From a virus: 64,000 nucleotides of DNA. The position numbers and the translations under genes are program-made. The DNA lies in IMG/VR virus record IMGVR_UViG_3300028581_000024, positions 28,063-92,062 of that record, one strand, 5' to 3'. Every line of letters begins with the position of its first letter. Position 1 is the stretch's first letter. The notes under the pieces are model-generated. The model ran no database searches, was not told the DNA's origin, and worked only from the letters and a program-made list of their open reading frames with translations. Below are positions 53 to 55,371 of the stretch, piece by piece.

Positions 53-658
53 ATGAATAAGTTTGTTAAGCTGTATGAGTCAGCAATCCAGAGGTATACA
101 CGTGGTGGGTTTCTAACGGGAGATTTGGTAAAATTCATAGATTATGCATTTAAAGATGATTTCTTCAAAAAACAATCACCAAACTATGTTCAAAAGGCTA
201 AAGCTTTTAGCGAAGGCGGTTTAAACATAAGAGTTAGTGCTGTGAAAGCTGTAAGACCTACGATCCATTCTGGTGACGTACAGAACGAAGCAGATGAGTT
301 TCTAATTGATATTGTGCAAGAGTTAGCACCCGGGTGCTATAAAGAATTTATAACAATACCAGCTCATTTACTTTCGCCTATTGATGTTTATCCGAATCTA
401 TTACCAGTACCAGATAGCTTAAAAAGACACAATCACACCATAGTTAAGCCTCAAGAGGTTGATATTAAGGACGAAGAAGAATTATGCCTATCCCCACACC
501 GTCAAACTCTTACTAGCGATGTTGGTGACAAGAAAGATTCTGAAGGCGATAGAAAGCTCAATAACTTCAATACAAAAATTCCTAGCTTACCAGCAAAAGA
601 TGAATCTAATCCAAGCGTTGATTCAGGTACTCACAGATATCTACCTAAGAAGCGCTAA
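53..658 (+). CDS. Late virion-type protein with capsid-targeting-like N-terminus, unknown function
   Basis: A 201-residue protein of unknown function. It begins MNKFVKLYESA, with an LYE site near residue 9 that resembles the (L/I)xE cleavage sites of T4 internal proteins. The first 120 residues look folded. The last 60 are charged and low in complexity (KDEEE, KKDSEGDRK) and probably disordered. A late box lies directly upstream with no Shine-Dalgarno sequence, suggesting late, leaderless expression. The 3' end overlaps the convergent clamp-loader gene by 14 bases. A minor virion or internal protein is the most likely role, by inference from promoter and N-terminus only. Confidence 0.75.
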   Translation: MNKFVKLYESAIQRYTRGGFLTGDLVKFIDYAFKDDFFKKQSPNYVQKAKAFSEGGLNIRVSAVKAVRPTIHSGDVQNEADEFLIDIVQELAPGCYKEFITIPAHLLSPIDVYPNLLPVPDSLKRHNHTIVKPQEVDIKDEEELCLSPHRQTLTSDVGDKKDSEGDRKLNNFNTKIPSLPAKDESNPSVDSGTHRYLPKKR

Positions 659-1580
659 TATCAGATAAAGCCAGCACTAAGCAATAAAAATTAATTTCTT
701 GATCAACTACAAACGCTGATCTATACATATACTCACCAATAGTAATCAGCCATAGCTTTTTTTGATGCTCCCCTAAAGAGTAGTTGCCATTGCAAGTAGA
801 ATCAAACAGTGATTTCATTAATAAAGAATAATCGCCTTGAAATGCTGCCTCATTTTCAATAATTAACTTTCGAACAGCCTGAGCTTTCTTGCTAGTAATT
901 AAAGTGATTATCTTATCGGTAAATTCATCTTGAATATTTAAATCGGGTATTGATAAAGTACCAGTAATACTATATTTTTGCATTTCATTAATGCACTTAC
1001 GTATATCAGGAAAATATTTTCGAACTAACCCTACTAACTTCTTCTTATTACCCTCATCAACAACAATATTTTCCATCTTAAGAATAGTATAGCATCTCTT
1101 AAGAACATCTGGTAAGCTTGGTTCTAAATCTATAAACTGACACCGGCTTTGCAGAGGTCCAATGACTCTATGCTTATAATTACAGGTTAAAATAAACCTA
1201 CAATGTGCGGCGTACTCTTCCAAAACATTGCGTAACGATCTTTGAGCCTCCATGGAAGCCATACCATCTACTTCATCAAGCAAAACAATTTTCTTTTTTC
1301 CATTAAAACTCTTTGTTCTACTAAACCCGGTTATATCATTTCTTACTGCGTCAATTCCAACTTCAGAACAATTCTGATAGATATGCTCTGCATCTAGAGC
1401 CGCAATTAAAACCTTTGATGTAGTTGTCTTGCCTATGCCTTGATGGCCACAAAACATTAAATTAGGAATTTCCTCGTTCTTTACAAACGAATTAATTATT
1501 TTTCTTGTATTGTCGGATAAAACGATATCACTAACGTTTTTAGGGCGATATTTTTCTACCCAAAGCTTATCTACATCCAT
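645..1580 (-). CDS. 44: Sliding clamp loader ATPase subunit (T4 gp44-like)
   Basis: A 311-residue AAA+ ATPase that would load the gp45 clamp onto primed DNA, close to the 319 residues of T4 gp44. It starts MDVDKLWVEKYRPKN, the standard clamp-loader opening. A Walker A GHQGIGKTT lies at about residues 45-53, a Walker B VLLDEVDG follows, and the SRC arginine-finger motif is seen as QSRCQF. The frame is open further upstream to 1673, but that part overlaps the dUTPase gene. The ATG at 1580, one base after the dUTPase stop, is the sensible start. The partner small subunit gp62 was not recognised in the window. Confidence 0.93.
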   Translation of the reverse strand: MDVDKLWVEKYRPKNVSDIVLSDNTRKIINSFVKNEEIPNLMFCGHQGIGKTTTSKVLIAALDAEHIYQNCSEVGIDAVRNDITGFSRTKSFNGKKKIVLLDEVDGMASMEAQRSLRNVLEEYAAHCRFILTCNYKHRVIGPLQSRCQFIDLEPSLPDVLKRCYTILKMENIVVDEGNKKKLVGLVRKYFPDIRKCINEMQKYSITGTLSIPDLNIQDEFTDKIITLITSKKAQAVRKLIIENEAAFQGDYSLLMKSLFDSTCNGNYSLGEHQKKLWLITIGEYMYRSAFVVDQEINFYCLVLALSDISAS

Positions 1581-1581
1581 A

Positions 1582-2025
1582 TTATTTACCGCTGCTACCA
1601 AATCCCTTTTCACCACGATCAGCCGCCTGAACTGCACCCCAATCAACCGACATTTGAATATTAAAATGCACAACTAGCTGTGCAATCCTATCACCTTTAT
1701 TAACCTGGTATGGTTGATCATTATGATTGTACAGTAGTACTCCTAAATCTCCCCTATAGTTCTGATCGATAACACCGGGATGTGCTAAGACACCGCTCTT
1801 AAAGCTTAGCCCCGATCTCGACTCCACACTTATCCAGTATCCCGGTTCAATATAAGCTAATTTTAAGCCTACCGGCACCACAACACGGTCATTCGCTGGA
1901 ATTACTGTACTTTCTACAGCTGAAAGATCCCACCCTGAATCGGACGGGTAATTCTTCTGCGGTAAAACAGCATCCTGGTGTGTTTTCTCAAATTTCATAA
2001 AAGGATTATAGGTGGGTAGTTCCAT
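1582..2025 (-). CDS. dut: dUTP diphosphatase (trimeric dUTPase)
   Basis: A 147-residue enzyme hydrolysing dUTP to dUMP and pyrophosphate, which keeps uracil out of phage DNA and feeds dTMP synthesis. The five trimeric-dUTPase motifs are visible in order: SGWDLSA, SRSGLSFKSGV, GVIDQNYRG with the catalytic Asp, GDRIAQLVV, and the C-terminal RGEKGFGSSG loop. An ATG at 2031 is also in frame, but the early promoter geometry places the expected transcript start on the second ATG at 2025, giving MELPTYNPF. The gene is first in a two-gene early operon with the clamp loader. Confidence 0.93.
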   Translation of the reverse strand: MELPTYNPFMKFEKTHQDAVLPQKNYPSDSGWDLSAVESTVIPANDRVVVPVGLKLAYIEPGYWISVESRSGLSFKSGVLAHPGVIDQNYRGDLGVLLYNHNDQPYQVNKGDRIAQLVVHFNIQMSVDWGAVQAADRGEKGFGSSGK

Positions 2026-2031
2026 AAACAT

Positions 2032-2059
2032 AATATAACGTATGGTATATCGAATTCAA
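2032..2059 (-). promoter_or_regulatory. Early sigma70-type promoter of dut-44 operon
   Basis: On the minus strand TTGAAT (2054-2059), a 16-base spacer and TATATT (2032-2037) are followed by 6 bases and the ATG at 2025. The expected +1 coincides with that ATG. Confidence 0.75.
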
Positions 2060-15330: not shown

Positions 15331-15336
15331 TTATGT

Positions 15337-15344
15337 TATTTAGA
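15337..15344 (-). promoter_or_regulatory. Late promoter box (TCTAAATA) of the terminase gene
   Basis: Seven of eight bases match TATAAATA, 6 bases before the ATG at 15330. It is divergent from the plus-strand box 3 bases away. Confidence 0.55.
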
Positions 15345-15346
15345 GG

Positions 15347-15354
15347 TATAAATA
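15347..15354 (+). promoter_or_regulatory. Late promoter box (TATAAATA)
   Basis: A perfect box 5 bases before the ATG at 15360. This position supports 15360 rather than the upstream in-frame ATG at 15273, which lies inside the terminase gene. Confidence 0.75.
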
Positions 15355-15359
15355 GATAT

Positions 15360-16259
15360 ATGACAAGAGTAAGTTCAATCAAAGATATTGGCCTAGTATA
15401 TGAAGAGGTGCTAAAACAAAGTAGACCAGCACCCGAAAAGCAAGTAGAAGTGGTTGAAGAAAAAGCAGTTAAAAAGCTTGACACCTTTCCTCGCGCTACT
15501 GATAAGAAGATAGACGTAAAAAAGATTACTGCCAAGGGTTCTGACAAGAATGCCTTTGTGCATAAGGATTCAGGTCCTGAGGCTAAGCTCGGAAGTAAGA
15601 AGGAAATCATTGACCCTAAGACGGCCAAAGAAGATAATCATTATCAGCCACAAAAATTTTCTGATAACACAAAAAAATTAAACCAAGAGAATATAAATAA
15701 TAGTATGAAATCAATTTTTGATAAATTATATGAAGATGTAATGGGTGACGACAAACTCGATGTCGGCATTCAAGCTGGCCCTGAAGGAGAGGCCGCCGAT
15801 GCTAAGGATCTAGATCTTAGCGGTGGTAGCGAAGATACCATCACGGTAAAGCTCGATAAAGATACTGCTCATAAGCTACATGATGCTTTGATGAGCGTCC
15901 TTGGTGCTGATGAAGCCGCTGATGACGAAGCTGCTGATGAAGCCGCAGATGATATTGAGTCTGCTGACGATGTTCAAGCTGCTGAAATGGAAGAGATTCC
16001 AACAGAAGTGGCTGGTGAAGGTGTTGATATTAAAGAAGTGCCTGCTTCTGCTGGACAATCCTTACAGAAGAAGGGTGGATTTCCTACAGTCGGAACAAAG
16101 ACAGGTCATGCTAAAGGTTCTAAAGCATCTGGTCAAGTTGCAACAGAGATTGATGCCAAAGGAACACCTCTTGCTGATGCCAAAGGTCATTCTTTAACTG
16201 CTAAGAGCGCCAATAAAGTTAACGCTCCCGGTTACAAAGCTGGTGACTTTTTTAAATAA
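15360..16259 (+). CDS. Acidic late virion/scaffold-like protein with a nested second start
   Basis: A 299-residue protein rich in Ala, Asp, Glu and Lys, without enzyme motifs. Residues 170-220 are strongly acidic (repeated AADDEAADE), and the last 80 are Gly/Lys-rich. At residue 116 there is an internal in-frame ATG (15705) giving MKSIFDKLYEDVMGD, itself a capsid-targeting-like peptide, 5 bases after a perfect late box. Two products, of 299 and 184 residues, are therefore predicted. Acidic scaffold-core or packaged internal protein are the likeliest roles. A strong terminator follows. Confidence 0.75.
   Translation: MTRVSSIKDIGLVYEEVLKQSRPAPEKQVEVVEEKAVKKLDTFPRATDKKIDVKKITAKGSDKNAFVHKDSGPEAKLGSKKEIIDPKTAKEDNHYQPQKFSDNTKKLNQENINNSMKSIFDKLYEDVMGDDKLDVGIQAGPEGEAADAKDLDLSGGSEDTITVKLDKDTAHKLHDALMSVLGADEAADDEAADEAADDIESADDVQAAEMEEIPTEVAGEGVDIKEVPASAGQSLQKKGGFPTVGTKTGHAKGSKASGQVATEIDAKGTPLADAKGHSLTAKSANKVNAPGYKAGDFFK
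15692..15699 (+). promoter_or_regulatory. Internal late promoter box (TATAAATA)
   Basis: A perfect box inside the preceding reading frame, 5 bases before an in-frame ATG at 15705. It would drive a shorter, nested product. Confidence 0.65.
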
Positions 16260-16323: not shown

Positions 16324-16719
16324 ATGAGTATTTTTAGAGAAGCATTTCTACAGGCTCTTCAAGAAGATTTAATTAATTCTGCCACAACATGGAATACGGG
16401 CATAGGGCAGCTACATTATTCTGGTGCTATCTTTCCAAAAGTTAATCTAGACAAGCCAAAAGAACGACATAGAAAGGTTATTAAGGATCCAAAATTCAGA
16501 AAACATGCTCAAACAGTACCAGACATGCATAAAGCAGATCATACAGCTATACAGGCCGTCAATAATATGAGTGGTAAAAAGTTATCAGAAGACGAATTAC
16601 AACAAATTTGTAAAAAATATGGCATTTCTAGGCTCAATACCCAGCAATCTAAAAATTTAGGTAATACTGGCAAAGTCTTACGCTTCGATCCTAATGTACG
16701 GGGCTATGTACTACAATGA
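16324..16719 (+). CDS. Late protein with capsid-targeting-like N-terminus
   Basis: A 131-residue basic protein of unknown function. It opens MSIFREAFLQALQEDL, with an LQE site near residue 14 like those cut by prohead proteases. The remainder is Lys/His-rich (KERHRKVIKDPKFRKH) and may bind nucleic acid. The C-terminal part (LSEDELQQICKKYGI) could be a small helical domain. The stop overlaps the start of the gp14-like gene by four bases, tying it to virion assembly. Confidence 0.7.
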   Translation: MSIFREAFLQALQEDLINSATTWNTGIGQLHYSGAIFPKVNLDKPKERHRKVIKDPKFRKHAQTVPDMHKADHTAIQAVNNMSGKKLSEDELQQICKKYGISRLNTQQSKNLGNTGKVLRFDPNVRGYVLQ

Positions 16720-19116: not shown

Positions 19117-19533
19117 ATGAGTCTTTTCCAAAAGGAGTTTTTAGCCGTTCTAGAAGCAGATGAAAACCAAGCCGCACCAACAGATACTGCTGCAGCTGAG
19201 CAAGCAGCAATGCAACAGCAGCTAGATCCAACCACCGATCCTAAGGCACTTGATGCAAATGCGCCACAAGGTGTTGATCAAGCACGTGCAGGTCATAACG
19301 CAGCACAAAAGAAAATTCTCGGTACATGGATTAAGCAAGTAGCAGATTTTGTTGAGTTTTTAAATGGTGTGAGTCCTAATAGCGTTCAATCACAACTTTT
19401 CAATAGCAGCTGCGATACACTTTTCGAGCGCATTTCTACAAGTGAAAAGAAAAGAATTTCTCGCGTTGCTATGGAATTAAGTTCCTTTAACGAATCGTTA
19501 AAAGGCTATCTCATATCTGGTGACGAATCTTAA
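19117..19533 (+). CDS. Late protein with capsid-targeting-like N-terminus
   Basis: A 138-residue protein, unknown in function. It begins MSLFQKEFLAVLEADEN, an amphipathic peptide with a VLE site, then an Ala/Gln/Asp-rich linker to about residue 65 and a helical C-terminal domain (ILGTWIKQVADFVEFLNGV...). It is a lone late gene on the plus strand between two early minus-strand genes and shares a TTAA stop with the primase gene. A packaged internal protein is the working idea. Confidence 0.7.
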   Translation: MSLFQKEFLAVLEADENQAAPTDTAAAEQAAMQQQLDPTTDPKALDANAPQGVDQARAGHNAAQKKILGTWIKQVADFVEFLNGVSPNSVQSQLFNSSCDTLFERISTSEKKRISRVAMELSSFNESLKGYLISGDES

Positions 19534-27684: not shown

Positions 27685-28557
27685 ATGAATTTAGATAGCA
27701 AACTAATGTTTGAAGCGTATATCACTAGTAAACAACAGATTTTAACTGAAGCTCCAATTGAAATGGGTGGGGATATTAATGTCGAGCCTGTAACAAAAAA
27801 GACTTTACCTGGCCAAGGCAAGGGGTATGGTGCCGGTGCTATTACTAAAATTGCAGCAGCGCAAGGTAAGTCTGAAGAAGATGTTGCAACAGAGATGGCA
27901 AAAACGGTTCTAGATTATACAAAAGAGAAAAAAATGGTTGATGGTAAGGAGGTTTACTACTTCCCTGGTGATCCAAAGACATTCATTAACGAACTAACAC
28001 CAGTTTTTAAAGATAAGTTTGGTATTCCTGCTTCCATGGCCGGATTTACTGTGAATTATATTTTAATATATCTATTAAATGCTAAAAAGACTTCTGGTGG
28101 ATTAAAAATGGATGCACAAAAAGTAAAAGCTGCAAAAGAAATGAAAGCTGCTACAAAAGCCGAACCAAAAACAGAGACTGTGTATGAGATTGATAAGGCT
28201 GTACGTATTCCTGAGAAAAATTTAAGAGCTCTTGTGCTTAGTCTGCCTGATGATGATGTGCCTGAGCGTGAAATCCTGTCAGTTGTAAAAACAGCTTTGC
28301 AAGAGTATAATGAAACACCTGGCTTGGCAAAAGAAGATGCAATTAAAATGAGGTCTCTTGAAGTTGTAGACAAATTAACAGAATATGGTGTACTCAAAAC
28401 AAAACAAATTGAAAAGGCCCAAGCTGAAGGTGAAGGCTCTGGAGAAGTAGAAACTGTTGAAGATTTTCCTGAAGGTGATGACATTTACTCAGCAGCCAAA
28501 CAAGAATTTCGCTTGAGAGATACACCAGGTGATAAGAATTACGGTGACTTCAGTTAA
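27685..28557 (+). CDS. Late protein with capsid-targeting-like N-terminus
   Basis: A 290-residue protein of unknown function. It begins MNLDSKLMFEAYITSKQQILTEA, with possible cleavage sites MFE and LTE. Residues 45-130 look folded (a helical GAITKIAAAQGKSEEDVATE segment and then FPGDPKTFINELTPVFKDKF), followed by an Ala/Lys linker and a second helical domain, then an acidic tail. It is a single late gene placed between two early minus-strand operons and shares a TTAA stop with the amidotransferase gene. Probably a virion or packaged protein. Confidence 0.72.
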   Translation: MNLDSKLMFEAYITSKQQILTEAPIEMGGDINVEPVTKKTLPGQGKGYGAGAITKIAAAQGKSEEDVATEMAKTVLDYTKEKKMVDGKEVYYFPGDPKTFINELTPVFKDKFGIPASMAGFTVNYILIYLLNAKKTSGGLKMDAQKVKAAKEMKAATKAEPKTETVYEIDKAVRIPEKNLRALVLSLPDDDVPEREILSVVKTALQEYNETPGLAKEDAIKMRSLEVVDKLTEYGVLKTKQIEKAQAEGEGSGEVETVEDFPEGDDIYSAAKQEFRLRDTPGDKNYGDFS

Positions 28558-42034: not shown

Positions 42035-42265
42035 ATGAAAACGTTTAAAGAATATGTTATGCAAGAGGATAATACTGCCGGTGCAGGCGGGGTCTTCGGC
42101 GACGCACCTAGCATGGGACATGGCGGAGCAGTAGGAAATTCTGATTTTTATGCACCAGATGATATGCGAACACCCAAATTCTTAGGAGCAACGTTAGTCG
42201 GCAAAAAAGGCAAAAAACGGCGTGTGCCTCTTGTACAACGAAGAAGCTTGTTTAAATACTTCTAA
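42035..42265 (+). CDS. Small late protein with capsid-targeting-like N-terminus
   Basis: A 76-residue protein opening MKTFKEYVMQEDNTAGAG, strikingly like the MKTYQEFI-type start of T4 internal proteins, with a possible cut after MQE. The middle is Gly-rich (GGVFGDAPSMGHGGAVGN), and the end is very basic (KKGKKRRVPLVQRRSLF), suitable for DNA binding inside the head. A stop/start overlap joins it to the next gene. Confidence 0.72.
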   Translation: MKTFKEYVMQEDNTAGAGGVFGDAPSMGHGGAVGNSDFYAPDDMRTPKFLGATLVGKKGKKRRVPLVQRRSLFKYF

Positions 42266-43262: not shown

Positions 43263-43625
43263 ATGAAGTTTTTATTACAAATTATTGAAAAGTACAAGAA
43301 ATTAGAAATTGATCCGCCACAATGGGTTATGGAGTATGTATCAAGTATACCTGGCGTGACCCCCTCTACATCTTCAACTCCATCTACCCCTTCAACTTCA
43401 TCTGCTAGTCAAGCACCCAATCTTGGAAAAGTTATTGATGATACTCTCAAGGTACAACAAGACCCTGAACTTGCTAAGAAAAAGCTAGAACTAGATACAA
43501 TTTACAAGCAAGTTGCTGATGCGCTGAAGAAGAAAGCTGAAGAAGCTACTGGCAAATTAAGACAAGCATCAACACAGATTCCTGCTACTACACCAACTGC
43601 TACTACACCAACAACAGTTCCATGA
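43263..43625 (+). CDS. Late Ser/Thr/Pro-rich protein with capsid-targeting-like N-terminus
   Basis: A 120-residue protein beginning MKFLLQIIEKYKKLEI, with an IIE site. A repetitive SSTPSTPSTSS linker follows at about residues 37-48, then a charged helix (ELAKKKLELDTIYKQVADAL) and a Thr/Pro tail. No known family. It overlaps the next gene by four bases. A packaged or scaffold-related protein is suggested by promoter and N-terminus. Confidence 0.65.
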   Translation: MKFLLQIIEKYKKLEIDPPQWVMEYVSSIPGVTPSTSSTPSTPSTSSASQAPNLGKVIDDTLKVQQDPELAKKKLELDTIYKQVADALKKKAEEATGKLRQASTQIPATTPTATTPTTVP

Positions 43626-43975
43626 GATTTAACGATCTAATTGCAGCAAAATTCGGTAATTTGCTCGAGCAAACACCTGTACAGCCTGAAATTAATGTAC
43701 CTGCGGCTGAAGCGCCTGTTGCTGCTCCACAAGCAGTCCCCGAGCCTCAAGTAGAGCCGCAGCAACAAAAACCTCTAACTCCTGAGGGTGAAGTCTTTTT
43801 AATTAATCTACTTAGGAAGGCACTATTCATGAACCCTGATGATATAGAGCTTAAGGTCCTAAAGGATTTACCCGATACTGATGAAAAAAATGCATCTGAT
43901 GTGCTTAACAAAATTATTAAGTTGATGCAGATGGATGCTGTTAATTTAGATGTAAATACACAGACCAATACATAA
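43622..43975 (+). CDS. Late protein with capsid-targeting-like N-terminus
   Basis: A 117-residue protein starting MRFNDLIAAKFGNLLEQTP, with an LLE site, then a Pro/Ala/Gln linker and a helical C-terminal domain (GEVFLINLLRKALFMNPDD..., ASDVLNKIIKLMQ). It is coupled by a four-base overlap to the upstream gene. Family unknown. Confidence 0.68.
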   Translation: MRFNDLIAAKFGNLLEQTPVQPEINVPAAEAPVAAPQAVPEPQVEPQQQKPLTPEGEVFLINLLRKALFMNPDDIELKVLKDLPDTDEKNASDVLNKIIKLMQMDAVNLDVNTQTNT

Positions 43976-43979: not shown

Positions 43980-44510
43980 ATGAATAGGGACAATCATTTA
44001 ATATTTGAAGCATTTATTAACAAACAAAGTGCCACAGGTGTGGACAAACCAGTAGATGCAAGAGATAATAATTCAGAAGATGCAGAACAACCAGTGGACG
44101 GTATTACCAAGCGCAGAGGTGAATTGGCTGGTAACATCATGGACATTGTGAGATACGGTATTCCAAGCAAAGAAGAGTTTATCAAGATCAGACAAGAACT
44201 GCATGACAAAACAAAAGAAATTTCAGACAGAGGCACCCCTGCAACAGAAGAAGAGAGACACCGGGGCAGGCAGTTGATAGGCATGATAAGATCCTACAGA
44301 GCCCAGCACCCCAATGATCCTGGTCCTTATGCAGAGAATGCAGAGAGTTCAGATGAAAGAAAAGAACGAGTGCAAAGGGGATGGGATATAAACAAAAAGA
44401 GATGGGCCAAATGGAAAATGCAGAATCCAGAAGCTGCTGCCAGGCATGCTGCAAAGAAAGCTGCTGGTAAAGAGGAGAATGCAGAAGAAGATAAACATAA
44501 AACGCTATAA
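43980..44510 (+). CDS. Late basic protein with capsid-targeting-like N-terminus, compositionally unusual
   Basis: A 176-residue charged protein beginning MNRDNHLIFEAFINKQ, with an IFE site. The body is rich in Arg, Lys and Glu (KERVQRGWDINKKRWAKWKM, then AARHAAKKAAGKEEN) and could bind DNA. By eye its codons are richer in G and C (CAG, GGC, CCC) than in neighbouring genes, suggesting recent acquisition. It follows the previous gene by 4 bases. Confidence 0.68.
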   Translation: MNRDNHLIFEAFINKQSATGVDKPVDARDNNSEDAEQPVDGITKRRGELAGNIMDIVRYGIPSKEEFIKIRQELHDKTKEISDRGTPATEEERHRGRQLIGMIRSYRAQHPNDPGPYAENAESSDERKERVQRGWDINKKRWAKWKMQNPEAAARHAAKKAAGKEENAEEDKHKTL

Positions 44511-44528: not shown

Positions 44529-45773
44529 GTGTCGTATAAGAGTTTAAAAGAAGTATACTCCGAGAATGTTGTGGGTAAACCGGTCCCGCCATTACCTAGA
44601 CAAAGCGTACGCTTGTTTATAAAAGAAGAAGATGAGGCTATAAAAGTCTATAAACAGGAAGCAGATGATCCCGCTACGCTGGAAGGTGAAGTAGATAAAG
44701 AATATTATGATGATGTTATTTCTCCAGCAATAACAAGGGGTGGTAATTATCAATTAGCAAAAATAGTAAAAGAAAGACTAATGAATACTGGTTGTTACAC
44801 CAATAGAAACTACAATTTATTAGTAGACTTCTTACAAACACTTAATATTACATTAACAGAAGAAATCTTCAAAGAGTGTGAAAGACTTTTTTTAAGTAGA
44901 TTAAACCAACCATTTATTTCATTTATAACCGTATTAGCTGAAGCCTTAAATGCTAACGGTCAGAATATCACAGCACAAAGTATTGCTAGCTATCCCGAGA
45001 TTACTGAATTATATGATTTACTAGCAACAGATAAGGCGCCCAGAAAGGATCAGAGTAAAAATGCAGGTCCCGGGGAAGTTTTTATAGCTTTTTTTGCTAA
45101 TGGAAAAAAACTTTCCTCTAGAGATGAAGCTTCATCTAGCGAGGAAACCTCAAAGGGCGATATAATGATAGGCGGGGTTAAGTTAGAGCTTAAAGCCTTG
45201 GACGGTAGATTAGGAATAAAGGAGAGTGGAGTGTATTATAAGAGGCCGAAAGAATATTTTGTAACTGCTCCTGATACACTATTGAACAAGATAAAGTACT
45301 TAGCATTTGGAGATTACAAATATGCAGAAGATGCGTTTAAGCCTTTTGAGTCAGAAGTCAATAGCATTATAGGTGACAGGACTAGTTTGTCGTTTGAGGA
45401 AGGTAGAAATATAGCCGGTGCAATAATTTTAAAAATATATTGTAATAAAAATAGACTAAACTGGTTTCTTGTTGTAGATAAAAGAACATCCTATTTAAAT
45501 TGTGTTCCTGCACAAATAACAGATAATGAATCAATTTCAGAAATTTTAAATAAGATGAAAAATAGATTTTATGTATTGCCTGCTAATGGTGGTGCAAAGG
45601 TATTAATAGGTAAGAGCAAGTCATCTGATGGAATAGCAAAAGCCGCCAAACCAAAACAAGGAAAAATACCAGGAACGCCTGCTTCTTCTACAGTAGTGCC
45701 TGCCCCTATCCCTGCTGTAGCACAAGTTTCACAACCTCAACCTGTACAAGGGACGCCTGATGCTACCGTTTAA
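44529..45773 (+). CDS. Candidate packaged PD-(D/E)XK-like nuclease
   Basis: A 414-residue protein with a GTG start. The N-terminus MSYKSLKEVYSEN resembles the capsid-targeting group (YSE). A conserved-looking block, GPGEVFIAFFANGKK...KGDIMIGGVKLELKALDGRL, has Glu183, Asp211 and Glu220-x-Lys222, the spacing of a PD-(D/E)XK nuclease core. The flanking first 170 residues are helical. The C-terminus is a Pro/Ala tail. It overlaps the next enzyme gene by 14 bases. DNA cleavage is inferred from this motif only; a non-catalytic relative is possible. Confidence 0.55.
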   Translation: MSYKSLKEVYSENVVGKPVPPLPRQSVRLFIKEEDEAIKVYKQEADDPATLEGEVDKEYYDDVISPAITRGGNYQLAKIVKERLMNTGCYTNRNYNLLVDFLQTLNITLTEEIFKECERLFLSRLNQPFISFITVLAEALNANGQNITAQSIASYPEITELYDLLATDKAPRKDQSKNAGPGEVFIAFFANGKKLSSRDEASSSEETSKGDIMIGGVKLELKALDGRLGIKESGVYYKRPKEYFVTAPDTLLNKIKYLAFGDYKYAEDAFKPFESEVNSIIGDRTSLSFEEGRNIAGAIILKIYCNKNRLNWFLVVDKRTSYLNCVPAQITDNESISEILNKMKNRFYVLPANGGAKVLIGKSKSSDGIAKAAKPKQGKIPGTPASSTVVPAPIPAVAQVSQPQPVQGTPDATV

Positions 45774-46386
45774 ACAATTCTTAATTGAAGTAACTGGTAC
45801 ATCAATAGGTTTTTTCCCAGGAGCTTTTAAGCCACCACACAAAGGGCATTTTGATACTGCTAAACAAGCGGCTACTGATAACGACATAGCAGTTGTGTTG
45901 ATTTCAGGTTCAGATCGAGATGGTATTACAACAGCAGATTCATATGAGATTTGGAATATGTACAAAGAATATCTTCCAAAAAATGTTTATATACATACTA
46001 TTACTGGGTCTCCTGTGACTGCAATCTATCAGATTGTTGATATATTGAATAATGGTCAATTCTCACCAACGCCAAAAGTCACTAACCCATTGCCTGATGC
46101 TGATAAAATTGCAAAAATGTTACAAGGGTCACCTGCACCCTACACTATAAACCTATATGCAAGTCAAGAGGACTTAGTACGCTTTAATGCCTTTACCGGT
46201 CCTAATAAACAAATTTATGTAGGTAAAAATGTTTCCAAGATCGGTCACGGTAATATTTCTAGACTAGCTTCAGCTACACAGGCAAGAGAGGCCCTAAAAA
46301 ATAAGGAAGAAGCAAAATTCTTTACTTTCTTACCAGATATTGCAATTCAAGGTAAGCAAGAAATTTATAGAAAGCTAGTAAAATGA
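45760..46386 (+). CDS. Packaged-type HxGH nucleotidyltransferase
   Basis: A 208-residue protein of the nucleotidyltransferase superfamily that includes NMN adenylyltransferase and cytidylyltransferases. GFFPGAFKPPHKGHF carries HxGH at residues 27-30. Later, KIGHGNISRLASATQAREAL resembles the ISST-type loop. Before the domain comes MLPFKQFLIEVTG, a capsid-targeting-like peptide with LIE. Start and stop overlap both neighbours, so it is made with the nuclease-like and KxDG proteins. Confidence 0.75.
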   Translation: MLPFKQFLIEVTGTSIGFFPGAFKPPHKGHFDTAKQAATDNDIAVVLISGSDRDGITTADSYEIWNMYKEYLPKNVYIHTITGSPVTAIYQIVDILNNGQFSPTPKVTNPLPDADKIAKMLQGSPAPYTINLYASQEDLVRFNAFTGPNKQIYVGKNVSKIGHGNISRLASATQAREALKNKEEAKFFTFLPDIAIQGKQEIYRKLVK

Positions 46387-47738
46387 TTAGGTTTAAGACT
46401 TACATATTATCCGAAAACGAAATTCTTCTCGAAAAAGATACTTACTTTTCGCCACATCTTTCACACTTAGAAGATTTAGCTATAGAAGGTGGGAAAAATG
46501 GATTTAATAGTTTTCTTATACAAGCTACTAACATAATAAACAAATTAAAAGGATTTGAATCCGAGCAAGAGATTAACGCAAAAATTGATGGTGCCCCGTC
46601 AATTTTGTTTGGTGCCGATCCTCGTCCAGAAGCTAATAAACAATTTTTTGTAGCTTTAAAGTATGTAATAGATGAAAGTACTGATACACTTAAAGAAAAT
46701 GCCAAGCTGTTGCATAGTGAGCAAGAAATAGATCAAAACTTTAGTGGTAAGCAAGAGCTTGCAACTAAGCTGAAGAGCTTGCTTTTAAATCTTAAACCAG
46801 CTTATGATAATAGTGGTAAGATCTATCAAGCTGACGTTCTCTTTACATCGTCTGCAGATAAAAGCAGAGTTAGAATAGAGAATGAAGAATATATTGCGTT
46901 TAAACCAAATACAATTATGTATACTGTACCTATTGACGATAAATCGCCGTTGTTTGCTAGTATTAATAGCAGCAATGTTGGTATTATAGTTCATGACTCG
47001 TTCACGGGGGTTATCAGTGACAATGGTAAGAGTATTAAATTAAAACCAGCTGGAAAGAACATATCGTCACTAATTAGTAGCAGCCAGGGTACTAAAGCTT
47101 TTATAAGAGGTAGTAACTACGGTGAGGTGGCTTTTGATATGTCAGACAAGATGGTGCATGATATAGAAAAAACAATTGCTGCAGCCACCAAGCATGTTAA
47201 TAGCATTGATAATAAGTTTGATCAAGAATATGTTTCGTCTGCAAAAGGATCGATGGGCGGACAGATATTACCGCTGTTAAAAATTTATTTAAATAAACAG
47301 GTAGATTTAGAAGATAGTGGAATTTTTGGCGCCGCGAAGACGGGTGCCAAGTTTGATACAGCGCAGTTCTATGAGGGGTTTAAGGCATTCGTTAATGAGC
47401 GTATTAGTAAAGGTATTGAAGAATTAGGCGAGAAAGGCAGAGCAGCAAGAGAACAAAAAATTTCTAGTATAATGGACTTTCTTGATATGCATCGTAAGAG
47501 TTTTGAAAGTTTAATACACGCTACATACGAAATGGTTCGTGTAAAGTTTTTTATACTGCAAATACTTTCCCAGCTGGACACCAGATTAACATCCAATGCC
47601 TTCTATCAGCTACCTGATGGTTCTTATGCAAAAGCTAAAGATGAAGGGTATGTTTTATTTGTTGGTAATAATCAGGTTAAGATAGTAGATCGGGTAGACT
47701 TTACTAGAATGAACCGCCTAATGGGTGGCAGATTTTAA
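46383..47738 (+). CDS. Ligase-like nucleotidyltransferase with KxDG motif
   Basis: A 451-residue protein. INAKIDGAPSILFG contains Lys67-Ile-Asp-Gly70, the motif I pattern of covalent nucleotidyltransferases (DNA/RNA ligases, capping enzymes). FFVALKYVID and IYQADVLFT could be the following motifs (IIIa, IV), and EEYIAFKPN may be motif V. The N-terminus MIRFKTYILSENEILLE holds LSE and LLE sites of the capsid-targeting type. The C-terminal 200 residues are helical and unassigned. Ligase activity is inferred. Confidence 0.6.
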   Translation: MIRFKTYILSENEILLEKDTYFSPHLSHLEDLAIEGGKNGFNSFLIQATNIINKLKGFESEQEINAKIDGAPSILFGADPRPEANKQFFVALKYVIDESTDTLKENAKLLHSEQEIDQNFSGKQELATKLKSLLLNLKPAYDNSGKIYQADVLFTSSADKSRVRIENEEYIAFKPNTIMYTVPIDDKSPLFASINSSNVGIIVHDSFTGVISDNGKSIKLKPAGKNISSLISSSQGTKAFIRGSNYGEVAFDMSDKMVHDIEKTIAAATKHVNSIDNKFDQEYVSSAKGSMGGQILPLLKIYLNKQVDLEDSGIFGAAKTGAKFDTAQFYEGFKAFVNERISKGIEELGEKGRAAREQKISSIMDFLDMHRKSFESLIHATYEMVRVKFFILQILSQLDTRLTSNAFYQLPDGSYAKAKDEGYVLFVGNNQVKIVDRVDFTRMNRLMGGRF

Positions 47739-47739: not shown

Positions 47740-48288
47740 TTATTTTTCTTTATTTTCTTCGATTGTCTTGATAGCTTCAAGATTAAAAATTGTTTGACGC
47801 AATACTGTCTCAAGAACTTCTTTATTCTCGCCGTGTAGCATATCTCTGATTCTTGAAACAATCTTAAATTCATGTGCGTCGTTATCGGGTGCAAATTCAC
47901 CTTGTTTCTTAAACTTATTATATTCTAAGTAATTTCTTACACCTTCAATATAACTTGCTGCTACTGTAATTTTACTAAAAACCCAGGGTTCGAGATCCTC
48001 ACCATCTTTAATTAAATTGTATAATTGCTTTGAGGCGTTATGCATCTTATAAAGCTCGTTCTTTGCCATATCTGCATCTGTCTCTCCTGTGCCTGCGGTA
48101 GGTGTTTTTTCATCCCAGCCGTCTTCGCAGTCCTCACAAGCTTTATTGTCACTTATCTTTAAGACTGTTGGTGTATTGTTCGATGGAGCCATTGCTGTAG
48201 ATTCTGGCCCAGGTCCAAGGTTTAATTCATTTACAACAACTTCGTTATAAGCTTCAGAAATTTTAATAAGCTCGTTTTTCTTACTCAT
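47740..48288 (-). CDS. Late acidic protein
   Basis: A 182-residue acidic protein beginning MSKKNELIKISEAYNEVV, with an ISE site. CEDCEDGWDE is a short acidic Cys pair, and the C-terminal half is helical (PWVFSKITVAASYIEGVRNY...). The promoter box ends 6 bases before the ATG, and the gene is divergent from the retropepsin-like gene. Its stop follows the ligase-like stop by one base on the other strand. Function unknown; virion component likely. Confidence 0.68.
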   Translation of the reverse strand: MSKKNELIKISEAYNEVVVNELNLGPGPESTAMAPSNNTPTVLKISDNKACEDCEDGWDEKTPTAGTGETDADMAKNELYKMHNASKQLYNLIKDGEDLEPWVFSKITVAASYIEGVRNYLEYNKFKKQGEFAPDNDAHEFKIVSRIRDMLHGENKEVLETVLRQTIFNLEAIKTIEENKEK

Positions 48289-48318: not shown

Positions 48319-48735
48319 ATGCGTAGTTTTAAAGAATTTTTTTATGAACAAATACTGGGATCGACAGAAGGTATTACTATTCAACATGTTGGAAATGTAC
48401 GAGCTACTGTAGACACAGGCAATAGCGGGTATAACGTTCTACATGCAATAGTATTAAAAGATGCCAAGCCTGGTCATGTAAAGTTTAAAACTATTGGTGA
48501 TAAAGTATTAGAACTTCCCATCAAGGATAGCATCACAGTTTCAGGTAATAATAATGTTAACGATAGAGTTGTTGTTGAACTAGACTGCAGTATTGGTAAA
48601 GAGCAATTCAATAAAACTCCCTTCAGTCTTGCTGATAGAAGTAACCAAGATAATCCTGTTTTACTTTGTAAGGATTTTATTAAGCAAAATGGTGGCGTTG
48701 TTAACGTCAATATTAACAATAACCTTACCTCTTAA
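48319..48735 (+). CDS. Retropepsin-like aspartic protease with capsid-targeting-like N-terminus
   Basis: A 138-residue protein. VRATVDTGNSGYNVLHA carries the DTG active-site triad at residues 32-34. RVVVELDCSI, FSLADRSNQDNPVLLCKDFI matches the C-terminal half of the RimB-like family once called ATP-dependent zinc proteases. One domain per chain means it would act as a dimer. The N-terminus MRSFKEFFYEQILG resembles a capsid-targeting peptide (FYE), so packaging into the head is inferred. The stop (TTAA) is shared with folE. Confidence 0.72.
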   Translation: MRSFKEFFYEQILGSTEGITIQHVGNVRATVDTGNSGYNVLHAIVLKDAKPGHVKFKTIGDKVLELPIKDSITVSGNNNVNDRVVVELDCSIGKEQFNKTPFSLADRSNQDNPVLLCKDFIKQNGGVVNVNINNNLTS

Positions 48736-49431: not shown

Positions 49432-50754
49432 ATGCTTTTGAATAAACTTATTGAGAATACACTCAGAAACACTAAGCTCAAGAGAGTTAGAATAAAGGTA
49501 GATCCTTCCGAACTACCAGTTTTTGGATATGAGAATGTAGCTCACTTTGAGGGGTATGTATTGGAGGAATGCGGTACAACTGTAAGTGTATACATAGTAA
49601 ATGTCCCTCCAAATGTTAGCCCCATACAGCAAGTTGGTGCATCTCAAATAGAGCCTGTGGATGAGCCAACAATAAATCCATCCTTTCAGAACTTAAAGCG
49701 AAACCTCCTATCTGCACTTATAAAAGCCGGTCATGGTTCCGAAAGCCCTGTTTATAATCAAATTAAAGCAAGCAATAATCCAGAGTTTATTGAAACGTTC
49801 TTAAAGCAGGCAAGTATCGATCCTGAAGCACTTTTGAATGCCACATTTACAGAGGCAGCTACACTCTCTGCTTCAAATGCACAACCCACAGAAACACAAG
49901 GTGATGATTTAGATGAAATTTTTGGTCGTAAGCAAAGTAGGGCTAGAAGTATCCTTAAAAGTCTAGAAAATGGTGGCACTATATCCAAGGGCATAGGCAT
50001 GGTAGCTTCAGCAATTGACACTGCTTCTGAGCTGGCTCTAGGTAAGCGCAATATAGTTGCGCGTCTCTCCTCATTCTTAAAAACCTTAAACGTTCAAGAT
50101 CTTATAGATCTTAAGTCCTTGAAGCTACGTTCAAACGAATACTCACATATACCATATAAAGGTAATACTGTATACTTTACAGGTCTTCCTAAGTTGTCGT
50201 ACAATCAGGGACCTGTAAATTATCAGTTAAAAGGTAGTGTTGCTTCTGCTAATTATTCTGCAGAAGGTATCAAATATATTGTTTCAGACATTAACCCGAG
50301 CTATCCAAAGCTAGACAAAATAATGTTAGACTTTTCGGTGCTTGACAACCCACGTAAAACAGGTAAAGCTATCTTTATTATTGATGGGCAAAAGCGATAT
50401 AGTACCGCACAAATAACATTAACTGAGGATATCTGGTTTGTAAAAATACTCAAATATAATGTGGCAGATAAAACTCCGGAGAGTAGCAAAGGCTTAATAC
50501 ATGCTGTGCGTGCAAAGCGTCTCTTGAAGGATCTATTAGAAGGGTCATATCAAGAAGCTGAGAAGTTACCACAATTTAGTGATATTCTTATGGGATTTGC
50601 ACAAGATCTTAAGGGGTACGATAAATCAAAACTGGCTGATGTGATTGCTTTTTTCGAAGAATTGAAGAAAGAACCTGATTTTGCCGGAAAATCTGTTGCT
50701 GAAAAACTAAATAAATTGAAGGTTGTAATAAAAATAATAAAAGAGGAAATATAA
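49432..50754 (+). CDS. Large late protein with capsid-targeting-like N-terminus
   Basis: A 440-residue protein of unknown function beginning MLLNKLIENTLRNT, with an LIE site. Residues 15-65 form a beta-type domain (VRIKVDPSELPVFGYENVAH...). A disordered middle with Ala/Thr follows, then KQSRARSILKSLENGG and a second beta region (GNTVYFTGLPKLSYNQ). The C-terminal 100 residues are helical. It is coupled by one base to the next gene. Probably a packaged or virion protein. Confidence 0.7.
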   Translation: MLLNKLIENTLRNTKLKRVRIKVDPSELPVFGYENVAHFEGYVLEECGTTVSVYIVNVPPNVSPIQQVGASQIEPVDEPTINPSFQNLKRNLLSALIKAGHGSESPVYNQIKASNNPEFIETFLKQASIDPEALLNATFTEAATLSASNAQPTETQGDDLDEIFGRKQSRARSILKSLENGGTISKGIGMVASAIDTASELALGKRNIVARLSSFLKTLNVQDLIDLKSLKLRSNEYSHIPYKGNTVYFTGLPKLSYNQGPVNYQLKGSVASANYSAEGIKYIVSDINPSYPKLDKIMLDFSVLDNPRKTGKAIFIIDGQKRYSTAQITLTEDIWFVKILKYNVADKTPESSKGLIHAVRAKRLLKDLLEGSYQEAEKLPQFSDILMGFAQDLKGYDKSKLADVIAFFEELKKEPDFAGKSVAEKLNKLKVVIKIIKEEI

Positions 50755-51085: not shown

Positions 51086-51748
51086 ATGGAATATCAAAGT
51101 ACTAAAATTATTGAACTTGGGAGTTGTGCATTTCGTCAATGGAAGGCAGACAGTCACTGCAAGTTTATTCATGGCTACAGATTGGTTGCAAAGTTTTGGT
51201 TTGCATGTGACCGTCTGGATGATAGAAATTGGGTTGTGGATTTTGGTGGGCTCAAGGAGCTTAAGCAGGTTCTGGAGAAACAGTTCGACCATACATTTTG
51301 TGTATCGGCAGATGATCCTCAGCTTGAGTTATTCAAACAACTGGATATTGCAGGTGTTTGTGATTTGAGAGTCATGCAGCGGGGCGTGGGCATCGAGAGA
51401 ACAGCCGAATGGTGTTTTGATGTGGCCGATGGGCATGTGAGAGGCATTACAAGTAACAGATGCTGGGTGGAGAGAGTTGAGGTGTGGGAGCATGATAAGA
51501 ACTCTGCAATTGTTAGTTATGGTACCACACATATGAACACACCAGCTGCACCTAATGACAAACAGAAAGTTGTAGCTGAGCAGTATGAACTTAATTTTAC
51601 TTCTCAGACACAGCCTGTTGCTAATGTTGTAGCAGCACCATCACCTGAAATACAGAAAGCTGCAGATAAAGAACATGGTGCTGCTGTTGGCAATAAAGTA
51701 TCTTCTGGTTGGGGAAACCCATACAGCGGCACAAGCTGGGGTGCTTAA
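51086..51748 (+). CDS. queD: QueD-like 6-carboxytetrahydropterin synthase
   Basis: A 220-residue member of the 6-pyruvoyl-tetrahydropterin synthase family, second step of the 7-deazaguanine pathway. The catalytic Cys25 and His29 of C-x3-H are present (SHCKFIHGY). Two usual zinc histidines are replaced: AFRQW has Phe16 where AAHRL has His, and HGY has Tyr31 where HGH has His. NWVVDFGGLK and FDHTF are conserved. The last 60 residues form a low-complexity tail ending NPYSGTSWGA. DNA here looks richer in G than flanking genes. Confidence 0.82.
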   Translation: MEYQSTKIIELGSCAFRQWKADSHCKFIHGYRLVAKFWFACDRLDDRNWVVDFGGLKELKQVLEKQFDHTFCVSADDPQLELFKQLDIAGVCDLRVMQRGVGIERTAEWCFDVADGHVRGITSNRCWVERVEVWEHDKNSAIVSYGTTHMNTPAAPNDKQKVVAEQYELNFTSQTQPVANVVAAPSPEIQKAADKEHGAAVGNKVSSGWGNPYSGTSWGA

Positions 51749-52555: not shown

Positions 52556-53302
52556 ATGCAAGATTCTACAATATTCTTAAGTGATGATAAGATTTTTTAT
52601 ACAATTGAGGGTGAAGGCGAGTTTGCAGGCATTCCATCTGTTTTCATGCGGCTTTCAATGTGCAATTTGACATGTCAGGGATTTAAATCAGCCGATGCTC
52701 CCTATGGATGTGATAGTTTTGTGAGTTGGTCTGTTAAAAACAAATATACAGTTAATGAGATTCTTGATTATTTGAAGGAAAAGGGGTATGACAAACGGTT
52801 AACTGGTGGTGCAATATGGAAGCTCACAGGGGGTGAGCCTCTCATTCAACAGAACAAACTTTTGGATTTAGTGGAAGCTTTTGTGGAACGTCATGGTGTT
52901 ACCCCCATCATTGATTTTGAGACTAACGCAACAATTATGCCACGTGAAGAGTGGGTTAATAAGTACAAAGCCACCTTCACAACTTCACCCAAGCTTGCCA
53001 ATAATGGTGATGCAGCAGATAAGAGATATAAGCCTGAGGTGTTGAATTGGCATGCAAGAAACGGGTCTGGGTTCAAATTTGTCATCAGCAAGCAAGAGGA
53101 TTTGGATGAAGTGTTTTCTAACTACATAGATGCTCCTGACATCAGAGTGCCCCGCAATAGAGTGTGGTTGATGCCATGTTGTGGTAGCCGTGCTGAGTTA
53201 ACTGAAAAAGCAGCCATGGTTGCTGAATTATGCAAGGAGCATATGTTTAATTTTAGCCCTCGATTACAGCTTGTTATTTGGGATAAAGCTCTAAAGGTAT
53301 AG
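52556..53302 (+). CDS. queE: QueE-like 7-carboxy-7-deazaguanine synthase
   Basis: A 248-residue radical SAM enzyme that rearranges carboxytetrahydropterin to 7-carboxy-7-deazaguanine. GEGEFAGIPSVFMRL precedes the cluster cysteines, here Cys36, Cys40 and Cys52: the third is separated by 11 residues instead of the usual 2, a pattern with an insert known for some QueE. KLTGGEPLIQ and ETNATI are typical later motifs. It completes the pathway with folE, queD and queC, all under early-type promoters. Confidence 0.9.
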   Translation: MQDSTIFLSDDKIFYTIEGEGEFAGIPSVFMRLSMCNLTCQGFKSADAPYGCDSFVSWSVKNKYTVNEILDYLKEKGYDKRLTGGAIWKLTGGEPLIQQNKLLDLVEAFVERHGVTPIIDFETNATIMPREEWVNKYKATFTTSPKLANNGDAADKRYKPEVLNWHARNGSGFKFVISKQEDLDEVFSNYIDAPDIRVPRNRVWLMPCCGSRAELTEKAAMVAELCKEHMFNFSPRLQLVIWDKALKV

Positions 53303-53543: not shown

Positions 53544-53547
53544 ATTA

Positions 53548-54420
53548 GTGCTTAATAATAGATTTGAGAATAAAATAAACCAACTACTACACGAGTTTTT
53601 AATAGCTGCACCTGTGGTCGTACCTGCTGCAGCTGCAGCCGCCCCCGCCATAAGTAGTATTATTACCGGGCTCTTAGCGCCGCTGATCACACTAGGTGGT
53701 GCACTTGCAATACATCATGGTATAACATCTAAGCAGTCTGCACCAACAGTACAACCACAGACTTCGCCGGATAGTGCACCGAGCAAGCAGAAGATGCTAC
53801 CCGGCACACTTGCTCCTACAGCAGAGCCAGAAAAAAAAGATATTAAAATGCTACCTGGCACAATTGCCCCCAGACCTGCATCAGATCAAAAGACTGTTGT
53901 ACCATCACCGCAAAGCCAGACGGCATCTACAACGGATGAAGGTGGTCAGTCTGTACCTGAGATATCTGCTGCTAAAACAAAGCAACCTACAACAACAGCT
54001 GTGACGCCACCCGTGCAAAATACAGTTGATGCAACAGCAACAGGCAGTCAAGTAAGTCCTAAATATGTGCCGCCAATACCCTCTTTTAAGGATTATTCTA
54101 AACAATATAAGAAGGGTAGTGTTGAGTATGGTCAACCAACAGATATTCCTCTTGGCGTAAATGCAGGACCAGGTGGTATATATTCTCAAGGCTATGGTCC
54201 AACTGCTTATACAGACACATCAAATACAGCTCCTATGGATGTAGTGAAACAGGTGTTCACCGGGCAAACACCGCAAGCGACACAGGGAGTACCACAGACC
54301 CCAGAGGATTTAGAAAATGCTCCGCAAGTAATAAAGAATAGATATCAAGACAGAATGACTCAAAAATCTAACAAAGAAACAAAAGCATTTGGCGGTGTAG
54401 CGAATCTTTTTAATCGTTGA
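53548..54420 (+). CDS. Late membrane-active-type protein with capsid-targeting-like N-terminus
   Basis: A 290-residue protein with GTG start. MLNNRFENKINQLLHEFLIA contains an LHE site. Directly after it comes a long hydrophobic Ala/Pro/Ile region (about residues 20-55, with ISSIITGLLAPLITLGGALA) able to cross a membrane. The rest is Pro/Thr/Gln-rich, with two copies of KMLPGT(L/I)AP around residues 80-105. If the leader is cut, a membrane-inserting head protein would be released. Function inferred only. Confidence 0.68.
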   Translation: MLNNRFENKINQLLHEFLIAAPVVVPAAAAAAPAISSIITGLLAPLITLGGALAIHHGITSKQSAPTVQPQTSPDSAPSKQKMLPGTLAPTAEPEKKDIKMLPGTIAPRPASDQKTVVPSPQSQTASTTDEGGQSVPEISAAKTKQPTTTAVTPPVQNTVDATATGSQVSPKYVPPIPSFKDYSKQYKKGSVEYGQPTDIPLGVNAGPGGIYSQGYGPTAYTDTSNTAPMDVVKQVFTGQTPQATQGVPQTPEDLENAPQVIKNRYQDRMTQKSNKETKAFGGVANLFNR

Positions 54421-54449
54421 TAATTACTATAAATCCTATAAAATAAGGT

Positions 54450-55145
54450 ATGCGAATAGCTTTTAGTGGTGCTGCTTGTACAGGTAAAACAACTACTTTA
54501 AATACTTTTCTTCAGAAATGGACAGGGTACAAAACACCTCAAGAGACTTATAGATCTTTAATTTCGGAAAATAATCACAGCAAAAAAACAGATAAAAAAT
54601 TACAAAAAGCTATTCTTGAGTTTATGCTTAATCAGCAAAAACAGTATACCGCTCACGATAAAGTGGCGTTTGATAGATGTGGTTTAGATAATATAGTCTA
54701 TACGATTTGGGCACTTGATAAAGGTAAGAAAGGATTTACTGATGCATTTACTAATGAGTGTATCGAGTTAGTAAAGGAAAGCATGAGACATTTGGATATT
54801 ATTTTCTGGTGTTCAAGAGATTTAATGGGACCGGCAGAGAATAATAATGTAAGAGAGACTGATCCCACTTATATTTCTGAAACAGATAATATCTTTAGAG
54901 CGATTTATGGTCAATTACAAACAAGTGGGGTCTCACCATTTTTTCCACCTAACGATAGTCCAGCACTAATTGAATTGAAAGGTGGTTTGGATGAACGACT
55001 CAATCTTGTGTCAATGTATGTTAATGAAGATGGTAACATGTATGGTGAAGAGCAGAGTTTGGTGAATATGGATGAGATAGCCAAGATGGAAGCTTTATTA
55101 AGAGAGCAACAAGGATTGGCTTCCAAAGAAAAGGGTATTTTATAA
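54450..55145 (+). CDS. P-loop nucleoside/nucleotide kinase-like NTPase
   Basis: A 231-residue protein with Walker A FSGAACTGKTTTLNTF at the N-terminus and DKVAFDRCGLDNIVY as the kinase-type DR motif. It resembles AAA_28/deoxynucleoside kinase-like ATPases. An LID-like basic region is not obvious. TTGATA stands 27 bases before the ATG, with TATAAA as a possible -10, so it may be early. Phosphorylation of a (modified) nucleotide is a possibility, not shown. Confidence 0.68.
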   Translation: MRIAFSGAACTGKTTTLNTFLQKWTGYKTPQETYRSLISENNHSKKTDKKLQKAILEFMLNQQKQYTAHDKVAFDRCGLDNIVYTIWALDKGKKGFTDAFTNECIELVKESMRHLDIIFWCSRDLMGPAENNNVRETDPTYISETDNIFRAIYGQLQTSGVSPFFPPNDSPALIELKGGLDERLNLVSMYVNEDGNMYGEEQSLVNMDEIAKMEALLREQQGLASKEKGIL

Positions 55146-55151
55146 TAAATA
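55144..55151 (+). promoter_or_regulatory. Late promoter box (AATAAATA)
   Basis: Seven of eight bases match, directly after the kinase stop and four bases before the ATG at 55156. Confidence 0.7.
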
Positions 55152-55155
55152 ATAG

Positions 55156-55371
55156 ATGCTATATGACAAAACATACAATCTATTAATGGAGAATTTTAGA
55201 TCCATCAAGACTGTTAGTCGATTGTTTTACCCAAGAAATTTCTCTTTGTCAGACGAATTCATTAAAGCATTCAACAAGGAATACAGCCGGTTGAAATCCA
55301 TGCAGATTGATGATAAAAGAATTCTGCACAAAATGACTCGTGCATTACCTTTTCACAAAGATAATAATTAA
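55156..55371 (+). CDS. Small late basic protein with capsid-targeting-like N-terminus
   Basis: A 71-residue protein, MLYDKTYNLLMENFRSIK, with an LME site near residue 12, then a basic helical body (YSRLKSMQIDDKRILHKM). After removal of the leader about 59 residues would remain. The stop (TTAA) is shared with the glycine-rich gene. Packaged DNA-binding peptide is a guess. Confidence 0.65.
   Translation: MLYDKTYNLLMENFRSIKTVSRLFYPRNFSLSDEFIKAFNKEYSRLKSMQIDDKRILHKMTRALPFHKDNN

Follow-up and report, generated by a model that had tools for sequence, protein, structure and literature searches.

The stretch analysed here, referred to as the window, comprises 64,000 nucleotides of DNA (bases 28063-92062 of the 92,062-base viral record IMGVR_UViG_3300028581_000024), and six of its genes encode proteins that start with one of two tight N-terminal peptides, which we term family A (four genes) and family B (two genes). 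Judging from their sequences, these peptides are, with a probability of roughly 0.83, capsid-targeting sequences (CTS) of the type known from phage T4, belonging to a variant of the T4 system. Targeting of the tagged proteins to the head is very probable, and cleavage of the tags after a conserved Glu is likely in this virus. A sequence-only reading of the same DNA had proposed a single family of late proteins sharing a capsid-targeting-like peptide. All eleven N-termini that it quoted are present at the loci given for them, and the N-terminal pattern is indeed non-random, but two or more peptide families are lumped together in the list, which also needed pruning. Its capsid-targeting interpretation is upheld by N-terminal enrichment, a bias toward late genes, conservation of key residues, a protease accompanied by a matching capsid-protein site, and detection in the virions of two cultured T4-like phages.

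Family A has the T4-like consensus MKxFKxFLxE, with a core, [FY]xx[FYIW][FILVMY]x(1-2)E, that starts at residue 3-5. Family B has the consensus MNxDxKLIFEAY, with a core, Dx[KRH]L[ILM]xEx[YF], also starting at residue 3-5. What is informative in the peptides is the aromatic core at residues 4/7 or, in the second family, the DxKLIFEAY stretch. Members of family A in the window were scored with an external profile trained only on other phages (the T4 internal proteins, S-CREM2 and S-SCSM1), and are as follows.

42035..42067, plus strand: tag MKTFKEYVMQE of a 76-amino-acid protein (42035-42265); external profile p=5e-4
45760..45789, plus strand: tag MLPFKQFLIE of an NMNAT/cytidylyltransferase-like protein (45760-46386); external profile p=2e-4
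46383..46433, plus strand: tag MIRFKTYILSENEILLE of a DUF6267 protein (46383-47738); PF19782, E 3e-50
48319..48348, plus strand: tag MRSFKEFFYE of a PF05618-like protein (48319-48735); external profile p=4e-5

We called 95 genes in the window and scored all 95 N-termini. With the external profile, three of them reached p<=0.001 relative to internal segments, when 0.095 would be expected (p=1.3e-4). The window was also compared with four large related genomes (G001, G003, G004 and G005). In these five genomes the family A core occurred at 22 N-termini, where the frequency at internal positions would give 2.06 (p~1e-15, and still about 1e-5 when only 11 unrelated body groups were counted), and the family B core at 14 N-termini against 0 of 202,742 internal positions; as the core patterns were defined after some of the same sequences had been seen, these p-values are descriptive. 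Once the first 15 residues were removed, the proteins carrying A or B tags fell into 19 groups without detectable homology. The tagged genes are real, most having orthologues in related genomes.

Conservation is concentrated on particular residues. F4 and F7/Y7 are present in all four family A members and their homologues. The tag at 42035 is kept in L017-L019 and in homologues from all four related genomes. In the NMNAT family of the clade, at 34-60% identity to the window protein, residues M1, F4, F7 and E10 are invariant, and the relative in L017 starts MKTFKQFLLEA, close to T4 MKTYQEFIAEA. Among 20 distinct DUF6267 proteins, residues 4 and 7 are each F/Y in 20/20 and E17 is kept in 18/20, while their neighbours vary freely; in the predicted structure of the window protein, the predicted local distance difference test (pLDDT) score is <50 across residues 1-27. 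Relatives of the protein at 48319 start MRSYKDYFYE, MRSYKEFFYE, MKTFKQYIQE or MKTFKNFFIE. The [hydrophobic]-x-Glu sites of family A are FLIE, FFYE, VMQE and, at 46383, ILLE17, their position being shifted by 1-7 in two of them.

The bare LxE-type site carries far less information. A gene was counted as late if an ATAAATA late-promoter octamer lay no more than 14 bases from its start codon, and the site was scored in residues 5-20. It was present in 77/155 late genes (50%) and 188/697 other genes (27%; p=6e-8), whereas in a control stretch, residues 35-50, the figures were 25% and 22%; in the window alone they were 11/17 and 24/77. (The gene caller gave octamer-adjacent starts a small bonus in the four relatives, and none in the window.) This bears out the late bias expected by the sequence-only reading, which had treated an (L/I)xE site within 20 residues as a hallmark of the family; occurring in 27% of other genes, however, the site is weak when taken alone. 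As a motif, LxE within 20 residues was rejected as too frequent, and it did not predict presence in virions (p=0.16). The late octamer was also commoner at tagged genes in the five genomes (15/36 versus 170/891 others, p=0.001); among the four family A genes of the window only that at 42035 has its own, 33 nucleotides upstream.

The frequency of the bare site, its failure to predict presence in virions and the AT-rich genome all favour the idea that the peptides are a by-product of composition, AT-rich late-gene starts favouring K, N, F, L and E codons with no targeting function. We regard this as very improbable and largely refuted: the enrichment is of ordered cores, that of family B being absent from every internal position; conserved tag residues persist through synonymous codon variation and at 34-60% identity; and the control stretch shows no late bias.

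The machinery for a T4-type system is encoded in the left 28 kb of the record, which we also examined and which contains a T4-like head and tail module. Within it is an S77 prohead protease of the gp21 type (PF03420, E 1.2e-37) that retains the positions of T4 His85 and Ser140, the catalytic residues. The protease gene is adjoined by a gene at the scaffold position and by one for a gp23-like capsid protein, at most about 34% identical to capsid proteins of cultured cyanophages; at least 596 IMG/VR stretches encode relatives of this gp23-like protein. The capsid proteins of 79 relatives share a conserved Glu at around residue 60, within the pattern WC[ILFVM]xE or WC[FLM]E; in T4 gp23 the cut falls at residue 65. 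A cut site at VFGGA, without Glu, had been suggested by a four-sequence alignment with T4, and was rejected when the 79 relatives showed the conserved Glu just upstream. A gp21-type protease and a capsid protein whose Glu site matches are both present in this genome.

The protein at 42035 links a tag to the capsid protein. Its tag is followed by a copy of the N-terminal arm of the capsid protein, which begins just past the conserved capsid-protein Glu, and then by a basic tail. In tblastn searches against the relatives' capsid proteins it showed up to 58% identity over 43 amino acids (E 9e-10), and homologues with both tag and arm occur in all four related genomes (L138, L118, L125 and L146). 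Because the tag is joined to the arm at that Glu, the predicted cut in the tag and the cut in the capsid protein coincide. The protein might act at the inner face of the capsid or compete with the arm.

Cultured cyanophages provide a comparison with virion contents. For S-CREM2, 52 virion proteins are listed with coordinates (PMC10665884), and for S-SCSM1 virion proteins are labelled in the record (PMC9602691); we translated 219 and 279 proteins, respectively (498 in total). Among proteins bearing the family A core, 6/8 had been detected in virions, compared with 98/498 overall (p=0.001); with the T4 rule in place of this core, the result was 6/9 (p=0.0026). The pattern in S-CREM2 was first noticed by eye, so that the core, defined on the window clade, provides the cleaner test. 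The tagged virion proteins include a S-adenosylmethionine (SAM) hydrolase (MKDFDSFLEE), a kinase (MKRFDAFLTE) and a cytidylyltransferase (MKNFSSFLTE) of S-CREM2, and an NMNAT (MKSFLQFLKE) of S-SCSM1. Another S-CREM2 virion protein, gp13, matches with Leu at residue 4 (MKDLHSFLTE). The product of 45760 matches PF01467 only weakly (20.7 bits, below the cut-off of 21), and has a hidden Markov model match (E 1.3e-4) to S-CREM2 gp154, which carries the same tag and is a virion protein. In S-CRM01, the kinase starts MISFDQFLSE and has been reported from virions, and the products of adjoining genes start MKKLDQFLTE and MKLFNQFFKE. The NMNAT of S-CBWM1, also reported from virions, has no CTS at its N-terminus; judging by its annotation, this phage does not look T4-like. 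It has been suggested in the literature, in general terms, that a CTS may allow T4-like phages to package various proteins.

Two further cyanophage proteins have a W..W segment at the start and a family-A-like core at about residues 17-27: S-CREM2 gp12 (L004:7704-10313; LRFASFMAEA) and S-CRM01 g128 (L181:5422-5973; LSLDSFIKEA). From the location of these cores, the targeting core may work away from the very N-terminus.

Several observations weigh against a T4-type targeting role. The DUF6267 homologues of P-HM1 and S-CRM01 lack the tag, so that it is not essential to proteins of this type. The P1' residues (A, D, N, Q and V) are more varied than in T4. The virion test comprised eight proteins from two phages, neither of this clade, and family B is tied to virion proteins by resemblance to S-SCSM1 protein 89 and not directly. 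Carry-over was raised by the authors as an alternative for the virion enzymes, although the tag common to them makes this less likely. Finally, in G003-G005 the relatives of the protein at 16324, an uncertain member described below, keep F4 and have lost the Glu.

This last case, with its retained aromatic core, and the location of the tagged genes near other late genes, would also suit tags that attach late proteins to some phage component other than the head core (tail, baseplate, terminase or a membrane site), the Glu not being a cut site. We consider such docking unlikely. Family A is nearly identical to the T4 CTS, a peptide of proven role (PMC9026906), in the 42035 protein the Glu is followed by the capsid-protein arm, attached at the point where the capsid protein itself is cut, and the NMNAT, SAM hydrolase and kinase cargoes are not tail-like.

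If the peptides are T4-type CTS, the following sequence of events may be envisaged. The tagged proteins would be made late in infection from late promoters, and the peptide would dock them onto the scaffold core of the prohead, around which the capsid shell would close. The gp21-type S77 protease would then cut after the conserved Glu, releasing the cargo; DNA would be packed on top of it, and some cargo would probably enter the host with the DNA at the next infection. In T4 IPIII, targeting is set by residues 4 and 7, and processing by residues 8 and 10 (PMC9026906). Injection of the cargo into the host, proposed by analogy with T4, is a tentative suggestion to which we give slightly less than an even chance. 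The tags might instead load the head with proteins that remain there as inner structural components, as the 42035 protein with its capsid-protein arm copy looks structural and T4 IPIII affects head morphogenesis (PMC9026906). This we find rather doubtful for the set as a whole, given the enzyme-like bodies (NMNAT, PF05618 and M15 peptidase relatives, and the SAM hydrolase and kinase of S-CREM2) and the entry of Alt and most T4 internal proteins into the host (PMC9026906). A broader proposal, for which the chances appear to be about even, is that this T4-superfamily clade has at least two addresses (A and the previously undescribed B), by which at least ten distinct proteins, including many enzymes, are packed into the head and later injected; that cleavage of one of these cargoes uncovers a second capsid-protein arm; and that the same code accounts for the otherwise unexplained SAM hydrolase, kinase and NMNAT in cyanophage virions.

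A further enzyme-like candidate cargo in G001 is an M15/VanY-like D-Ala-D-Ala carboxypeptidase (L130:15636-16286) tagged MVSYRQFIKEA. One homologue of the 48319 protein lies above the PF05618 cut-off. DUF6267 proteins have an invariant AKIDG motif reminiscent of covalent nucleotidyltransferases; assignment as a nucleic-acid ligase on this basis was rejected, since the AlphaFold predicted template modelling (pTM) score was 0.48 and there was no Foldseek match in the PDB at E<=0.001.

The two family B members, and a third protein with a B-like tag, are as follows.

27685..27720, plus strand: tag MNLDSKLMFEAY of a 290-amino-acid protein (27685-28557); family B core
43980..44015, plus strand: tag MNRDNHLIFEAF of a 176-amino-acid protein (43980-44510); family B core
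47740..48288, minus strand: 182-amino-acid protein with a B-like tag (KISEAYNEVV); relatives have DFELLNEAY

The bodies of the 43980 and 27685 proteins show no homology to each other; the tag at 27685 is kept in a 41% identical homologue. TATAAATA lies 10 nucleotides upstream of 27685 and 6 nucleotides upstream of the 47740-48288 gene. Family B has Asp at position 4 and Leu at position 7, departing at position 4 from the aromatic/hydrophobic 4/7 rule of T4, and its [hydrophobic]-x-Glu site reads IFE or MFE, with Ala next, in nearly all of the 14 cases. From its sequence it is probably a peptide working like a CTS, which we do not class as a member of the T4 type; it would be a second address doing the same job. 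A motif containing cysteine, CWKGY...NCV, is shared by B-tagged bodies and one A-tagged body, suggesting that either tag can take the place of the other. The S-SCSM1 virion protein 89 mentioned above starts MDSKTFNSLSEAY. A 20-residue tblastn query gave no family B matches in cultured phages, such a short query having little power.

The closest known system is that of the T4 proteins IPI, IPII and IPIII (with the Alt, gp24, gp22 and gp21 propeptides), in which the peptide is likewise N-terminal and 10-20 residues long, positions 4 and 7 are hydrophobic or aromatic, and the cut site is of the [hydrophobic]-x-Glu kind. There too the bodies are unrelated and the genome encodes an S77 protease; the T4 genes are late, and the tags here show a bias toward late genes. 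The present virus, which belongs to an uncultured clade, differs from T4 in that its predicted cargo set is larger and partly enzymatic, the predicted cut site in many cases lies further along, at residue 11-17, a second core (family B) exists, and one tag is joined to a copy of the capsid-protein arm. The virion enzymes of S-CREM2, S-SCSM1 and S-CRM01 resemble it in genome plan (T4-like) and in NMNAT/cytidylyltransferase cargo with a family A tag, but were published without a targeting peptide being named, include SAM hydrolase and kinase cargo, and did not yield the family B core. In the SPN3US/phiKZ heads (PMC5694885), a prohead protease also cuts after Glu and several ejected proteins have N-terminal propeptides, although these are mostly >100 residues, with the motif A-x-E in SPN3US and no MKxFKxFLxE core. 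The tags described here do not have the long propeptides and A-x-E or S-x-E sites of the giant phages, being <20 residues with L/I/V/F-x-E.

A tag of this kind would allow proteins that travel inside the head to be predicted from raw phage genomes. It bears on the open question of whether NMNAT, kinases and SAM hydrolase in cyanophage virions are cargo or contaminants, and hints that abundant aquatic phages carry anti-restriction and metabolic enzymes loaded in advance. The tags would also be a natural means of loading proteins into phage heads, and family B suggests a second address in this uncultured clade, the capsid proteins of which turn up in hundreds of contigs.

About nine further window genes have looser, mostly conserved [hydrophobic]-x-Glu N-termini. 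Those with individual tags are listed below.

53..79, plus strand: tag MNKFVKLYE of a 201-amino-acid protein (53-658); pattern of F, hydrophobic, Y and E kept in G001, G004 and G005
16324..16365, plus strand: uncertain tag MSIFREAFLQALQE of a 131-amino-acid protein (16324-16719); kept in G001 as MSLFEKVFVSLLE
19117..19155, plus strand: tag MSLFQKEFLAVLE of a 138-amino-acid protein (19117-19533); F4, F8, L12 and E13 kept in four related genomes
43622..43669, plus strand: looser tag MRFNDLIAAKFGNLLE of a 117-amino-acid protein (43622-43975); F3 and an L-x-E-Q site in four genomes, with varying spacing
44529..44564, plus strand: tentative third type, VSYKSLKEVYSE, of a 414-amino-acid protein (44529-45773); SLxEVYxEN in G005, SLKDLYFED in G001
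49432..49455, plus strand: looser tag MLLNKLIE of a 440-amino-acid protein (49432-50754); LLSES, LVLES and LLKES at the same place in relatives
53548..53595, plus strand: looser tag VLNNRFENKINQLLHE of a 290-amino-acid protein (53548-54420); LLxE kept in L019, where the body is only 29% identical
55156..55191, plus strand: looser tag MLYDKTYNLLME of a 71-amino-acid protein (55156-55371); L-x-E-[NGS]-F kept in G003, G004 and G005

We regard as firm members the genes at 42035, 45760, 46383 and 48319 (family A) and at 27685 and 43980 (family B); those at 53, 19117, 43622, 47740, 49432, 53548, 55156 and 44529 are likely members, and those at 16324 and 15360 uncertain. As a correction to the sequence-only list, 48319, 19117, 53548, 44529, 47740 and probably 15360 should be counted in the set. 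The tag at 49432 is like T4 gp24 MAKINELLRE; a GmrSD-like assignment of its protein was rejected, the Pfam score being 19.8 bits, below the 33.2 cut-off. The tag at 44529 may be compared with DISKVYMEKV in S-SCSM1 virion protein 92. Gene 15282-16259 probably has its true start at the ATG at 15360 (MTRVSSIKDIGLVYEE), 5 bases after a TATAAATA, and the resulting N-terminus is also like that of S-SCSM1 virion protein 92. The gene at 43263 was rejected as tagged, Glu being replaced by Asp in a 56% identical relative (L019), with few relatives available. UvsY (41601), already regarded as a chance match, is one: it shows UvsY homology, and its relatives lack the aromatic core.

At many late genes the octamer NATAAATA ends 4-5 bases 5' of the start codon, in the window at 15347, 16312, 19105, 44517, 49420, 53536 and 55144. 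If this start-adjacent octamer is a -10 element as in T4, the mRNAs of these genes would be leaderless or nearly so. Upstream of individual genes we noted CATAAATA (6 nucleotides before 53), AATAAATA (4 nucleotides before 19117 and 55156) and GATAAATA (4 nucleotides before 49432 and 53548).

No cultured member of the clade was found, and cultured phages gave no close nucleotide relatives for the segment searched. Elsewhere in the window, the products of 29244-29987, 51086-51748 and 52556-53302 resemble QueC, QueD and QueE as judged by eye only, which would suggest 7-deazaguanine modification of the DNA.

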